Assembly: GCA_016188005.1 (NCBI GenBank)
Contig: JACPIQ010000026.1
Coordinates: forward strand, 1-64,000
Reading direction: 5' to 3'
Source of the DNA: Candidatus Rokuibacteriota bacterium
GTDB taxonomy: Bacteria; Methylomirabilota; Methylomirabilia; Rokubacteriales; CSP1-6
Length of the DNA stretch: 64,000 nt
Shown one piece after another: positions 4,957-16,531 of this stretch; within the stretch, counting starts at the first letter, position 1; every line of letters starts with the position of its first letter. The notes beneath the pieces were generated by a model. It had not been told where the DNA came from and did not search any database. It worked only from the letters and a program-made list of their open reading frames with translations. Both the position numbers and the translations under genes were made by a program.

Positions 4957-5178
4957 ATGGCATGGATGGCCACGACGCCATGGGGCGACGAGGAGCATCT
5001 GCTGCGCAGCCACCCCGACGACGGCGCAGAGGGCGTCGAGGGCGAGGATGACCTCGACGACGAGCTGGAGGACGACGAGGACGACCTCGACGACGACTTC
5101 GACGACGAGGATGACCTCGACGACGATTTCGACGAGGACGACGAGGACGAGGACGAGGAGGAGGACGAGGCCGAGTAG
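4957..5178 (+). CDS. Small, extremely acidic protein
   Basis: A 73-residue protein. The first 25 residues are mixed in composition (MAWMATTPWGDEEHLLR). The remainder is almost entirely Asp and Glu with periodic Leu and Phe (units like DDLDDDFDDE). It has no signal peptide or cysteine. The start is supported by GGAGGG 8 bases upstream and by the strong promoter at 4852-4879. Such tails can bind cations or basic proteins, but no function can be assigned. It sits 39 bases before the PuuD-like gene, so the two may be cotranscribed. Low complexity could also reflect repeat expansion of GAC/GAG codons. Confidence 0.6.
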   Translation: MAWMATTPWGDEEHLLRSHPDDGAEGVEGEDDLDDELEDDEDDLDDDFDDEDDLDDDFDEDDEDEDEEEDEAE

Positions 5179-5217: not shown

Positions 5218-5919
5218 ATGGCACTGACAAGCGGCGAAGGCGTGCTGTTCCTCCTGAGGTGGATCCACTTCCTGGCCGGTATCACCTGGATCGGCCTGCT
5301 CTACTACTTCAACTTTGTCCAGACCCCGTTCTTCGCGGAGACCGAGGCGCCGGTGCGCGCGGGCGCCATCCAGAAGCTGGTGCCGCGCGCCCTCTGGTGG
5401 TTCCGGTGGGGCGCGATGTTCACCTTCCTCTCCGGCTGGCTGATCATCCTGGACCGGATCGGCCGGGGCGGCTTCTTCGCGGGCTCCTACGGCTGGGCCA
5501 TCCTGCTCGGCGGGCTGCTGGGCTCCATCATGTGGGCGAATGTCTGGTTCGTGATCTGGCCCAAGCAGAAGATCGTGATCCAGAACGCCCTCGACACGGG
5601 GGCGGGCAAGCCCGCGAATCCCGCGGCCGCCCCCGCCGGCGCCCGCGCGGGGCTCGCCTCGCGCACCAACACGCTCTTCTCGATCCCCATGCTCTTCTAC
5701 ATGGGCGCCGCCACGCATCTCCCCACTCCGACCGTGCCGCGGTCGGGCGCCGCCTTCTGGATCGTGGTGCTCGTCATCATGGCCGCGGTGGAGATCAACG
5801 CGCTGGCGGGCAAGCCGGGCACGGCGACCACGAAGCCCCTCGGCACGGTGAAGGGCACGCTCTGGGCGGGCTTCATCCTGGCCGCGATCTTCTATCTCTG
5901 GTTCGAGATGATGCGCTAG
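5218..5919 (+). CDS. PuuD-like (urate oxidase N-terminal domain) membrane protein
   Basis: A 233-residue multi-pass inner-membrane protein. Features: RWIHFLAGITWIGLLYYFNF near the start, a WWFRWGAMFTFLSGWLII helix, several later helices, and conserved His and Trp residues. The pattern matches the membrane domain of PuuD-type urate hydroxylases (Urate_ox_N). Full PuuD proteins carry a C-terminal cytochrome c domain. This one stops after the membrane domain, and a cytochrome c lipoprotein is encoded convergently next door. The start is backed by CGGGAGG at 5206-5212. Urate oxidation is only one possibility, since no other purine-degradation gene is visible nearby. Confidence 0.7.
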   Translation: MALTSGEGVLFLLRWIHFLAGITWIGLLYYFNFVQTPFFAETEAPVRAGAIQKLVPRALWWFRWGAMFTFLSGWLIILDRIGRGGFFAGSYGWAILLGGLLGSIMWANVWFVIWPKQKIVIQNALDTGAGKPANPAAAPAGARAGLASRTNTLFSIPMLFYMGAATHLPTPTVPRSGAAFWIVVLVIMAAVEINALAGKPGTATTKPLGTVKGTLWAGFILAAIFYLWFEMMR

Positions 5920-12750: not shown

Positions 12751-13464
12751 TCACGGGCGGCAGACGCGGAACCGGGCATAGTCTCCTTGCGCGCTGCTCT
12801 GCGTGTCGTCCGAGTCCGTCAGGACGGCGATGCCCGCCGGTTTCGGCACCTCCGCCTCCTTGAAGAGGCTGCGGTAGTCCTCCAGCACGTTGACCCGCTC
12901 CTCGAGCCACTTCCCCTGGCCGCGAGCGCCGTTTCTCAGCACGCGGACCCGGGTGAGCCCGTTGCTCGAGCTGAGCTGCTCGCCGGCGGACACGACGGCG
13001 CTCCAGATGTACTTCAGCGATTTCACGGAGACCGGGGTGTGGGGGAAGACGGCGTAGACGGCCAGCGCGCTGTCGTTGGTCCGGGCCACCCGCTCGTCGG
13101 AGCCCGCCGGGAATCGCAGCGGGCGCCACTGCCACGAGAGCACCGGGTACGCGGCCAGGTCCCACTCGAAGGGCCGGGCCGCCTGGACCCCGAGCCCGCG
13201 GGAGCGGGCGCGCAGGAAGCGCCGCCCCGGCTCCTCCTCGACGGTGTACACCTCCCGGGCGGCGTCATCGCGCGGCCTCCACGCGGCCGGGAACACGCCG
13301 AGCTTCGCCGTCGAGAAGTCGTCCACGGCGACGCAGCCGCCGGCGGCCCCGGCCACGGCTGGAGAGGCGAGGAGGGCGAGGAGCGCCAGGCCGAGGAGGC
13401 GGACGCCGCGCCGGTGCCGGGGGGAGAGGCTCGGACCGGGAGCGCCTAGCGGCCCCGGCGCCAC
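12751..13464 (-). CDS. Secreted DUF3047 protein
   Basis: About 237 residues. A basic N-terminus (RHRRGVR) leads into a hydrophobic signal segment LLGLALLALLASPAVAGAA. The mature part has VDDFSTAKLGVFPAAWRPR, WQWRPLRFPAG, VKSLKYIWS and AVLTDSDDTQSSAQGDYARF, which match DUF3047. There is no ATG. GTG 13464 (or 13467) gives a sensible signal peptide and overlaps the end of the VWA gene by about 19 bases, so coupling is likely. A periplasmic or surface beta-sandwich is expected; its function is unknown. Confidence 0.75.
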   Translation of the reverse strand: MAPGPLGAPGPSLSPRHRRGVRLLGLALLALLASPAVAGAAGGCVAVDDFSTAKLGVFPAAWRPRDDAAREVYTVEEEPGRRFLRARSRGLGVQAARPFEWDLAAYPVLSWQWRPLRFPAGSDERVARTNDSALAVYAVFPHTPVSVKSLKYIWSAVVSAGEQLSSSNGLTRVRVLRNGARGQGKWLEERVNVLEDYRSLFKEAEVPKPAGIAVLTDSDDTQSSAQGDYARFRVCRP

Positions 13465-14855
13465 CACGAGTGCACGAGCTGGTCCACCACCTGCACCAGC
13501 TGCCCCACGGTGCGGCACTCCTTGACGATGTCGCAGGACGGGGCGTAGAGCGGCAGGACGCTGTCGCCGATGCCCCAGCCCCACTGCCCCTCCGGGTTGA
13601 GCCAGATGATGCCTTTCACACGCTCGCGGATCTGACGCACGGCCCACGCCTGCGGGTCGTTGTAGTTGTTGCGGGCATCTCCCAGGACGAGCACCGTGGT
13701 CTTGCGGTCCAGCGACTCCAGCTCCGTCCGGCAGAAGCGGCTGAAGGCGTAGCCGAAGTCGGAGCGGCAGTGGTAGTCCACGGAGGAGGACCTGAGCGCC
13801 CACTCGATGGCCCGGTCCACGGTGTAGGTGTTGAAGGCCTGCGTCACCTCGGCGATCTCGGACACGAACACGTACGAGCGGACCCGGGAGAAGCACTCCT
13901 GCAGGCTCCAGACGAGCTGGAGCATGAACCGCGAGGCGTTCCGCACCGAGTCGGAGACATCGCAGAGGGTGACCAGCTTGGGCTTCTCCCGGTGCCGCCG
14001 CCGGAAGCGGACCTCCATGGGCACGCCCCCGTACTGCAGGCTCTGCCGGATGGTCCGCCGGGAGTCCAGCCGGCCCTTCTCCTCCTGTCGCTGCCGCAGC
14101 GCGAGGGCGTCCTTGATCTTGCGCGCCAGCCGCGCCACCACCGCCTTCATCTGCGCCACCTCGTCGGGGGAGAGGGCGAAGAGGGGCTTGTCTGACAGCA
14201 CCTCGCGCGTGAGCTTCTCGCCCTGGCGGTAGGCGCGGCGTTCCAGCTCGCGCTCCACGTGCTGCCGGATCATCCGGCGGAACGCCTCCAGGCGGAGGTC
14301 GAGGTAGTTGCGGATGCGGGCGAGCTGCCCCGGGTCGAGCCCCCGCGCCTCCAGGAGGCGCATGATGCGCGCCAGGTCGCGCTCGATGCTCTCCCAGTCG
14401 AACTTGTCGTAGATGCGGCGCGAAAAGTACCCGATCTGCAGGAAGTACATGAGCCGCTCGAGGCCGGTGCCCTCGCCGCCCTGGCGGATGGCCATCTCCA
14501 TGTCGGCCCCCTCGCCGCGCAGCATCAGCTCGGTGAGCTCGTCCATCCGGAGCCCATCCTCGGCCGCCAGCCGGTCCAGCAGCTCGCGCATCCGGGGATC
14601 CTCGGGCCCCAGCGCCTTCTTGAGCCCGGCGCCGAGCGCCTCGAGGTCGAGGAAGTACAGGTCGAAGAGGCGATCGAAGGTCGGCAGGTCCCGTGACTCC
14701 TTGACGAGGGTCGTCGCCAGCGCCGTCCGGAAGGTGTCGCGGTCCTCCAGCCCGATCTCGGCCGAGGCCGCCAGCGCATCCAGCGCCTCGCTGGGCGAGA
14801 TGCGCAGCTCCGCCCGCCGGAGATCGCCGATGAACTCGAGAATGCGCTGGTCCAT
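13446..14855 (-). CDS. VWA-domain protein, CoxE family
   Basis: A 469-residue cytoplasmic protein. A helical N-terminal half is followed by a von Willebrand A domain with a MIDAS-type metal site (DVSDSV), a helical VSEIAEVTQAF region and VLVLGDARNN. The match is to CoxE-type VWA proteins, which work with MoxR AAA+ ATPases as chaperones for metalloenzyme or complex maturation. MoxR is the first gene of the same operon. The substrate is not obvious because no CO dehydrogenase or methanol dehydrogenase gene is in view. ATG 14855 directly follows the TAA of a small repeat-encoded ORF. Confidence 0.85.
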   Translation of the reverse strand: MDQRILEFIGDLRRAELRISPSEALDALAASAEIGLEDRDTFRTALATTLVKESRDLPTFDRLFDLYFLDLEALGAGLKKALGPEDPRMRELLDRLAAEDGLRMDELTELMLRGEGADMEMAIRQGGEGTGLERLMYFLQIGYFSRRIYDKFDWESIERDLARIMRLLEARGLDPGQLARIRNYLDLRLEAFRRMIRQHVERELERRAYRQGEKLTREVLSDKPLFALSPDEVAQMKAVVARLARKIKDALALRQRQEEKGRLDSRRTIRQSLQYGGVPMEVRFRRRHREKPKLVTLCDVSDSVRNASRFMLQLVWSLQECFSRVRSYVFVSEIAEVTQAFNTYTVDRAIEWALRSSSVDYHCRSDFGYAFSRFCRTELESLDRKTTVLVLGDARNNYNDPQAWAVRQIRERVKGIIWLNPEGQWGWGIGDSVLPLYAPSCDIVKECRTVGQLVQVVDQLVHSWWRRGR

Positions 14856-15029
14856 TTATCTTGCTTGAATGTGGATGACTTCGGTTTGGCGGTTTGGCCT
14901 CTTCGCGCAAGCGCTCATCGGGGCGGCGTCGCCACCGGGGGCCTCTTCGGGCCTCTGGCCCTCTCTCCATCTCGCCTGAACGTGACTCACTTCGGTTTGG
15001 CGGTTTGGCCTCTTCGCGCAAGCGCTCAT
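14856..15029 (-). CDS. Possible 57-residue repeat-encoded peptide coupled to the VWA gene
   Basis: An ATG inside the upstream 55-bp repeat copy opens a frame reading MSACAKRPNRQTE twice, separated by 24 residues. It ends TAA immediately before the VWA ATG (TAAATG). It is basic and Cys-containing, with no known relatives. It may be translated and help start the VWA gene, or may be a by-product of the repeat. Confidence 0.3.
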   Translation of the reverse strand: MSACAKRPNRQTEVSHVQARWREGQRPEEAPGGDAAPMSACAKRPNRQTEVIHIQAR

Positions 15030-15043
15030 CGGGGCGGCGTCGC
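14878..15043. repeat. Two 55-bp direct repeats, 111-bp period
   Basis: Copies at 14878-14932 and 14989-15043 are identical over 55 bases and sit between the unknown protein and the VWA gene. On the minus strand each is followed within a few bases by a related TTCA(G/A)GC(G/A)AGAT tract. The same tract also stands directly before the start of the unknown gene (around 15599-15613). This looks like a duplicated interspersed repeat carrying a translation-initiation region. Confidence 0.85.
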
Positions 15044-15598
15044 TCACCGCGAGAAGGTGACCCAGGAGGACTTGAACACGTCCTCGTTGCCGTCGCGGCT
15101 GATGGGGCAGAGCCGCCCGTCCTCGAGGCGCAGCAGCCCGTGGAACGAGCCGCGCGAGATCAGGTGGACGATCTTGAGCTTCCAGCCCAGCGGCTCCGAG
15201 GGGGGCTCCTCCTCCTGCTCCACCGCCCGGGTCACGTCCGGCGCGTCCCCGACCAGGTGCAGGACGCGCACCGGCCCCTCGGCGCACCGGAGGCCGAGCA
15301 CCACCTTGTAGGAGGACCCCTGGCGGACGGTCTCCACCGTCATCTCCCCGGGATGGAGCAGGTGCGGGACGGCCTCGGGCATGACGGCCGCGAAGAAGTC
15401 GCGCGGCCCGGGTTGGACGTAGTAGAAGTGCCAGCGCCCCGCCGCCCAGATCCAGAGCTTGGTGTACTCCCCGAGGGCGCCGGAGATGCAGCGCCCGCCT
15501 TCGATGAACACGGGCCCCGCGGGCGCCAGCTCGGGCAGGCGGATCCGCGGCGAGGGGAACCAGAGCTCCCTGAATTCGGTGAGAGTGTCCGGGGCCAT
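15044..15598 (-). CDS. Unknown 184-residue protein between MoxR and VWA genes
   Basis: The protein begins MAPDTLTEFRELWFPSPRIR. It contains GEYTKLWIWAAGRWHFYYVQ, a central beta-rich part (YKVVLGLRCAEGPVRVLHLV), an acidic stretch EQEEEPPSEP, and ends with IVHLISRGSFHGLLRLEDGR. It has no signal peptide or cofactor motif, and I do not recognise the family. Its place between a MoxR ATPase and a CoxE-like VWA protein in one operon suggests that it is a partner or client of that chaperone pair. Confidence 0.7.
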   Translation of the reverse strand: MAPDTLTEFRELWFPSPRIRLPELAPAGPVFIEGGRCISGALGEYTKLWIWAAGRWHFYYVQPGPRDFFAAVMPEAVPHLLHPGEMTVETVRQGSSYKVVLGLRCAEGPVRVLHLVGDAPDVTRAVEQEEEPPSEPLGWKLKIVHLISRGSFHGLLRLEDGRLCPISRDGNEDVFKSSWVTFSR

Positions 15599-15616
15599 TA
15601 TTATCTCGCCTGAACC

Positions 15617-16531
15617 TCAGGGGAGGTCGGCGAGGACCTTGTCGAGGGCGCCCCGGACCCGCTCCAGGTCCTTCTCGTGCTTGACGAGCATCGTGAGGGT
15701 GGACTCGACGAGCTCCCGGTCCATGGCGTCGGCGTTCAGGATGACCAGCGAGCGCGCCCAGTCGAGACTCTCGGACACCGACGGGGCCTTGCGCAGCTCG
15801 AGCACGCGGATCTTGTTCACGACAGCCACCACGGCGCGGGCCAGCCGCTCGGGGACCTCCGGCACCTTCAGGCGGATGATGGCCAGCTCCTCGTCCGGCG
15901 GCGGGAAGTCGATGAACAGGTGCAGGCACCGGCGCTTGAGCCCGTCGGACAGCTCGCGCGCGTTGTTCGACGTCAGCACCACCAGCGGGATGTTGGTCGC
16001 CTTGATCGTGCCGAGCTCGGGCACGGACACCTGGAAATCGGACAGCACCTCCAGGAGGAAGGCCTCGAACTCCGGCTCGGCCTTGTCGATCTCGTCCACG
16101 AGGAGCACCACCGGATCCGCCGACTCGATGGCCTGCAGCAGCGGGCGCGCCGAGAGAAAGCGATGGGAGAAGAAGGCGTCGTCCTGGCCCGAGATCCGCG
16201 CCACCGCGTCCGGCAGCGACGGGGCATCCGCGATCAGCTCGCCGATCCGGTCCTTGAGCAGCTGGGTGTAGAGGAGCTGCTTGGCGTACTTCCACTCGTA
16301 GAGTGCCTTGCCCTCGTCGAGCCCCTCGTAACACTGGAGCCGGATCAGCCGGCGCCCGGTGATCTCGGCCAGGGTCTTGGCCAGCTCGGTCTTGCCCACC
16401 CCGGCGGGCCCTTCGATGAGCACGGGGCGGCCCATGCGCTCGGCCAGGTACACTACCGTGGAGATGCGGCGGTTGGCGATGTAACGGGCATCCCTGAAGT
16501 GCTCCTGGACATCCTCGACCGATTGAAACAT
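15617..16531 (-). CDS. MoxR-family AAA+ ATPase
   Basis: A 304-residue ATPase with Walker A GPAGVGKT (K47), Walker B VVLLVDEIDKAE, sensor sequence LTSNNARELSDGLKRRC (arginine finger region), and C-terminal helices. MoxR proteins use ATP to remodel or activate target complexes together with VWA proteins, one of which is encoded two genes downstream. ATG 16531 has AGGAG nearby. It heads the minus-strand operon and diverges from the M48 protease gene. Confidence 0.9.
   Translation of the reverse strand: MFQSVEDVQEHFRDARYIANRRISTVVYLAERMGRPVLIEGPAGVGKTELAKTLAEITGRRLIRLQCYEGLDEGKALYEWKYAKQLLYTQLLKDRIGELIADAPSLPDAVARISGQDDAFFSHRFLSARPLLQAIESADPVVLLVDEIDKAEPEFEAFLLEVLSDFQVSVPELGTIKATNIPLVVLTSNNARELSDGLKRRCLHLFIDFPPPDEELAIIRLKVPEVPERLARAVVAVVNKIRVLELRKAPSVSESLDWARSLVILNADAMDRELVESTLTMLVKHEKDLERVRGALDKVLADLP

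Follow-up and report, generated by a model that had tools for sequence, protein, structure and literature searches.

A mobile repeat family of Rokubacteria operons that probably relays translation between genes

The spacer between two genes of a MoxR operon in a Rokubacteria genome consists of members of a dispersed, often tandem family of repeats of about 64 nt. We put at roughly 0.78 the probability that this mobile family persists in operons by passing translation on between neighboring genes. The family itself, its empty sites, its frame and stop/start architecture, and the covariation of its hairpin are all computed results.

The repeat in its operon and in the genome

The window (the whole stretch of DNA analyzed, 64,000 nt of contig JACPIQ010000026.1 from a Candidatus Rokuibacteriota bacterium) carries on its minus strand a MoxR-type ATPase gene, a gene for a protein of 184 aa (here, the 184-aa gene), and a VWA/CoxE-like gene, with the repeat between the last two. 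From upstream to downstream, the features are as follows.

15617..16531, minus: MoxR-type AAA ATPase gene (Pfam AAA_5, 8.8e-11)
15599..15616, minus: 18-nt spacer GGTTCAGGCGAGATAATA from the MoxR stop to the ATG of the 184-aa gene, holding the repeat's 3' tail
15044..15598, minus: 184-aa gene, upstream of the repeat (no Pfam match; present in 11 of 60 relatives)
14859..15046, minus: 188-nt insertion at the junction of the 184-aa and VWA genes (both congeners have CGG/TAAATGG there)
14969..15043, minus: first (upstream) full repeat unit (repeat search, family matches, profile)
14856..15029, minus: 57-codon mini-ORF created by the repeat (ATG at 15029; TAA at 14858-14856; VWA ATG at 14855)
15016..15025, minus: first-unit stem-loop GCGC-TT-GCGC, immediately downstream of ATGA (covariation over 38 clusters and alignment test)
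about 14933..14968, minus: truncated third unit between the full copies, read from the sequence with approximate limits (hairpin GGGCC-AGA-GGCCC, then GAAGAGGCC, then the next unit's lead-in)
14858..14932, minus: second full repeat unit (repeat search, family matches, profile)
14905..14914, minus: stem-loop GCGC-TT-GCGC of the second unit (covariation and alignment test)
13446..14855, minus: VWA/CoxE-like gene, downstream of the repeat (Pfam VWA_CoxE, 2.8e-32)

A repeat search of the window found two 75-nt copies (15043-14969 and 14932-14858) with 92% identity at a spacing of 111 nt. The 55 nt adjoining the stop of the 184-aa gene are identical between both, so the original prediction, made from the sequence, was correct in describing a duplicated 55-bp repeat of 111-bp period after that stop. 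The 57-residue ORF it described is also real, with an ATG 14 nt past the TGA of the 184-aa gene and a TAA that abuts the VWA ATG. A 30-mer core has two matches in the window and none in 100 shuffles, and the truncated unit matches the family profile weakly (14958-14939, E 9.5). The tract TTCA(G/A)GC(G/A)AGAT occurs three times in the window, always within the MoxR operon (15614-15603, 14980-14969, and 14869-14858); with one mismatch allowed, at least three occurrences arose in 1 of 100 shuffles. As had been claimed, it precedes the starts of two operon genes, the 184-aa gene (15614-15603) and the VWA gene (14869-14858). The idea that the repeat brings its own start signals held for the overlapping stop and start codons CGATGAG at its 5' end and failed for the tract, TTCARGCGAGAT, which is the repeat's 3' tail and not a canonical Shine-Dalgarno sequence. 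At the junction of the MoxR and 184-aa genes, where the window has the 18-nt spacer GGTTCAGGCGAGATAATA, the congeners carry CCGTAGATGG, and the spacer is probably what remains of a second insertion. Elsewhere in the window, at 5073-5119, there is a match to the Guanidine-II riboswitch (34.1 bits versus a threshold of 32; E 0.0045), possibly spurious, in low-complexity sequence ahead of an ORF (5218-5919) for a membrane protein.

Far from being unique to this locus, the 75-mer has 85 matches at E<=10 in its own 5.37-Mb genome, many of them tandem. A profile built from 34 stretches around these matches, with clusters kept at a best E<1e-3, gave 40 clusters and 97 units in that genome, window included, with array periods of mostly 63 or 66 nt. 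Aligning 40 rows, 36 of them units from the same genome and 4 from two other genera, gave the consensus CCCGATGAGC-stem-loop-GCGAAGAGGCCCAACCGC...GTCATCCACGTTCAGGCGA. Scanned as a pattern against 84,980 species genomes, this consensus matched 16 stretches, every one from Candidatus Rokubacteria GWA2_70_23 or GWC2_70_16. The repeat was detected by blast in 6 of 60 relatives and by a covariance model in 9 of 57 genomes of the taxonomic family (the source genome counted in both), which represent 4 of 24 genera. The same model found at least 93 matches in the source genome and at least 93 and at least 94 in its two congeners. In a second genus (G004), the repeat has a different 3' tail, and several mini-ORFs again stop beside a start codon. 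An exact 24-mer of the repeat was absent from viral contigs, and blastn of one 75-nt copy against a plasmid collection gave no match, both of which speak against spread by phages or plasmids. The literature searched, mostly outside subscription journals, does not describe the family.

Stop and start codons at the repeat and at its empty sites

Units begin CCGATGAG, in which a stop and a start codon overlap, the ATG opening a mini-ORF to which each unit contributes 21-22 codons. Across the 40 clusters of the source genome, the upstream gene ends exactly at the repeat's TGA in 21, ends earlier in 11, and passes it in 2, and the neighbor is antisense or unclear in 6. Among the 23 cases that reach the TGA, a count that omits the 11 with an earlier stop and the 6 with antisense or unclear neighbors, the TGA thus ends the upstream gene in 21 (p 1e-8). 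A hold-out set, consisting of 39 further stretches from the two congeners (35 of 41 clusters evaluable), gave 12 of 14.

The exit from the repeat was analyzed in 38 of the 40 clusters, leaving out one with an antisense downstream gene and one without a start, and with gene starts called by GC3 frame rather than by a gene finder. In 19 of these 38 the mini-ORF runs uninterrupted to a stop that lies -15 to +4 nt from the downstream start, and in 6 it carries on in frame into the gene itself; by this simple rule 13 do neither, and some of those 13 are, by eye, chains of coupled units. Some arrays are such chains, in which the terminal ATGA of one unit starts the next. Where a TGA overlaps the downstream start, its frame is that of the mini-ORF in 16 of 20 clusters (3 and 1 in the other frames; chance, 1/3) and, in the hold-out set, in 15 of 22 (5 and 2), with a combined p of 1e-7. 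Six clusters with an ambiguous downstream frame are included in this analysis, two of them among the 16 (the first cluster of L034 and the minus-strand cluster of L047), and without the latter the count is 15 of 19 (p 6e-5). Copies do lie before start codons, a point that the original prediction had proposed to check, and it is the mini-ORF frame, not the other two, that meets the downstream start.

Lengths show the same preference. The first array period is a multiple of 3 in 16 of 26 cases (p 0.003), and length differences between species are multiples of 3 at 20 of 32 shared arrays (p 7e-4), a comparison of 32 of 36 shared sites (4 had no readable first ATG) in which congener sites share ancestry and are not all independent. 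One three-unit array (L048, G000:C81, 1344-1532) is antisense to both flanking genes, is present at the same position in both congeners with two units in each, and does not fit the relay model.

Where the window reads CGG/TGAGCG...AAGCAAGA/TAAATGG, both congeners (G001 and G002) read CGG/TAAATGG. The 188-nt insertion supplies a new TGA stop and leaves the old TAAATG intact, and because the junction is empty in two genomes of the same genus, the insertion is recent and precise. These empty sites, together with the dispersal of the family through its own genome, bear out the proposal that the repeat is mobile. A search for the orthologous junctions in both congeners, made with the 90-nt flanks of every one of the 40 clusters, gave 65 matched cluster-genome pairs, with the element detected in 36 and not in 29. 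A -4-nt stop/start overlap is present at 20 of the 28 hit-free junctions evaluated (of 29); after 3 had been set aside by eye (2 with repeat remnants and 1 locus cut by a contig end), it is present in 18 of 25 comparisons, representing 16 of 21 sites (the frame call of cluster c10 is weak). Ordinary co-directional junctions overlap in 9 of 76 cases (12%) by a crude gene caller and in 5 of 26 (19%) within the window, and against this window background the empty sites differ with p 3e-8. The window's own site is one of five exceptions, with a TAA abutting the ATG in place of the overlap.

At some single-unit sites (L045 and L062), there is by eye what looks like a target-site duplication of ATGA, and at others, the window among them, there is none. 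One site (L152, G002:C56, with orthologs L054 and L117) has 8, 1, and 2 units in the three congeners, all in frame and ending TAGATGA, and is a natural variable-number tandem repeat locus. Y1/RAYT transposases (PF01797) were considered as the mover and rejected. The domain occurs in 5 of 6 repeat-bearing versus 3 of 30 other genomes of the family (Fisher p 0.0008; the source genome is among the 6), but the source genome has none, none of nine Y1 loci examined carries the repeat, and the Y1 genes of two genera come with their own inverted flanks. Those flanks, which hold GGTCAGGTCTTG... (L178 in G004, 1874-1912 and 2841-2879; L179 in G020, 1965-1988 and 2932-2955), belong to a REP-like system that has no relation to the window's repeat.

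We propose that the family expands in tandem and enters operon junctions in a few Rokubacteria genera, landing mostly on overlapping or abutting stop and start codons. Every full unit begins with CC-GATGAG, its TGA ending the upstream gene in most copies and its overlapping ATG opening the mini-ORF; the lengths of retained copies bring the mini-ORF stop onto or against the next start or, less often, let the mini-ORF run on in frame into the gene behind it. After ending the upstream gene, a ribosome could then restart on the mini-ORF and reach the downstream gene, so that the mini-ORF would be a relay and not a gene. According to a review, coupling efficiency drops as stop-start spacing grows to 30-40 nt (PMC12548453), and a plain 188-nt insertion should therefore uncouple the genes it separates. 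With the repeat, this handover of the ribosome would keep the operon coupled, a relay that would make insertions neutral. Thus, the original picture of a mobile repeat that carries its own start signals and couples genes is supported, with translation, termination-reinitiation, neutrality, and the coupling itself being what we infer from this architecture.

The stem, the peptide, and competing explanations

Directly after the start codon, a stem of 4-5 bp is kept by compensatory change. Of its cells, 150 of 152 pair (at most 134 in 5000 shuffles), the four outer pairs are complete in 36 of 38 clusters (shuffle maximum, 24), and in a separate alignment test 93% of 158 cells pair, a level reached in 0 of 500 shuffles. 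In the alignment, invariant GATGA and GAAGA flank the stem, and RNAalifold also pairs an invariant CC and GG outside it. The folding energy of single units is no better than that of shuffles (z of 0.03, 0.80, 0.57, and -0.21), so the stem may matter as DNA, RNA, or both; strong RNA structure was rejected on these z values near 0. The mini-ORF peptide appears not to be constrained: across 23 pairs of orthologous units, differences at codon positions 1, 2, and 3 number 46, 38, and 31, and with no third-position excess a selected peptide was rejected as well.

The alternative that survives best, though we consider it unlikely, is a non-coding intergenic repeat of an ordinary kind (REP-, ERIC-, or MITE-like), which would collect between genes because it does harm in other places, without any role for translation. 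The repeat is short and dispersed and has a covarying stem, its peptide lacks a third-position signal, and GC-rich DNA makes open frames cheap, as shown by the 24 of 38 clusters in which frame 2, too, is open as far as the start. Such a repeat, however, predicts 1/3 for each frame, whereas both the entry and the exit frame show a strong bias in each of two separate sets, and periods and length differences favor multiples of three.

The compensatory changes in the stem would also suit a cis-acting RNA element between genes, such as an attenuator, processing site, or ribozyme, whose reading frame is incidental. The invariant GATGA and GAAGA that flank it also recall the hammerhead core. We regard this reading as quite improbable: a hammerhead ribozyme or other known RNA was rejected when Rfam gave no match in the window at the gathering score or in 8 repeat loci to E 10, single units fold no better than shuffles, and the frame bias is left unexplained.

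Less probable again is a small-protein family with a function of its own that spread by duplication. One reading frame, encoding MSA..AKRPNR...SSTF-like peptides, is shared by 29 of 38 first units, but the codon-position counts above do not suggest a protein under selection, and other arrays, such as L040, use another frame and encode a different peptide yet still meet the next start. Assembly duplication, which the original prediction had named as a possible refutation, is very improbable, as the two copies differ (92% identity overall) and arrays of the same makeup recur in other assemblies and genera.

Relation to known systems and wider meaning

The relay reading has its closest parallel in mycobacterial MIRUs. 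As described in a review, these are apparently mobile repeats that insert at start codons, with the repeat's ORF coupled at a -4-nt spacing (PMC12548453), and they probably have minimal impact on the gene at the insertion site (PMC12548453, citing Supply et al. 1997, reference 77). On that description, both families are mobile and found at coupled junctions (empty Rokubacteria sites are -4 overlaps in 16 of 21), and in both the repeat ORF meets the next gene at a -4-nt overlap, a likeness of architecture (mini-ORF frame in 16 of 20 and, in the hold-out set, 15 of 22). Both are also short, dispersed, and tandem, the Rokubacteria family with 40 clusters and 97 units, and both form arrays of varying copy number (the basis of MIRU typing). 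The Rokubacteria family differs in belonging to another phylum, where the scan of 84,980 species genomes placed the exact consensus pattern in just two genomes, both of Rokubacteria, and in its covarying stem right after the start codon. To our knowledge, MIRUs are without dyad symmetry. We have not filed the family as a MIRU because its consensus pattern was found only in Rokubacteria; it seems to work like MIRUs while being unrelated in sequence as far as the pattern scan can tell, which could miss very distant homology.

Overlapping pairs of genes read in the same direction are a common feature of bacterial and archaeal genomes (PMC6728339). The ATGA junctions of translational coupling are of the same type as the repeat's sites; they join two host genes directly, whereas in Rokubacteria a mobile repeat with its own mini-ORF lies between. 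REP/REPIN and ERIC-type repeats are short, dispersed, structured, and extragenic, as is the Rokubacteria repeat. We know of no case in which they bridge reading frames, and the source genome is without Y1/RAYT (PF01797), while Y1 loci examined elsewhere are without the repeat. Rickettsia palindromic elements are mobile and tolerate translation by an open frame inside proteins. The Rokubacteria repeat would likewise tolerate translation but mostly forms its own ORF between genes and adds in-frame N-terminal extensions in a minority of cases.

The junction of the 184-aa and VWA genes is also occupied in other genera. Its spacers in L105 (G020, 1382-1500) and L108 (G016, 1402-1500) are not the window's repeat; the first belongs to a different dispersed family, with 17 matches in G020 and 16, 9, and 23 in G071, G073, and G074, and the second to another, with 42 matches in G016. 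Three genera thus hold three different dispersed repeat families at this junction. By eye, several copies of the G020 and G016 families end just before a start codon, and one G016-family copy (L254, G016:C260) is flanked by an apparent direct target duplication of about 25 nt, which may bear on the way that family moves. In L109 (G008), just after the 184-aa gene, an extra ORF resembles by eye an AbrB-type antitoxin (MNATVSSKGQLTLPRF...), and on this count the junction took different insertions in at least four genera. These observations hint that several repeat families have made junctions of this kind their habitat. More speculatively, and with the odds against it, Rokubacteria junctions might host several unrelated mobile families adapted to coupling, the window's family being moved via its conserved hairpin with the overlapping stop and start codons in the 5' side. 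A hairpin-moved family of this kind would form a new class of non-autonomous element, one that links its choice of target to coupled translation.

If the relay reading is right, the strategy of MIRUs arose separately in another phylum and is not a mycobacterial oddity, and insertion into coupled genes combined with a ribosome relay would be a general way for repeats to live in operons. Annotated small ORFs in Rokubacteria operons may then be repeats and not genes. Empty versus filled sites, and arrays of one versus eight units, amount to dozens of natural experiments on the chaining of termination-reinitiation.
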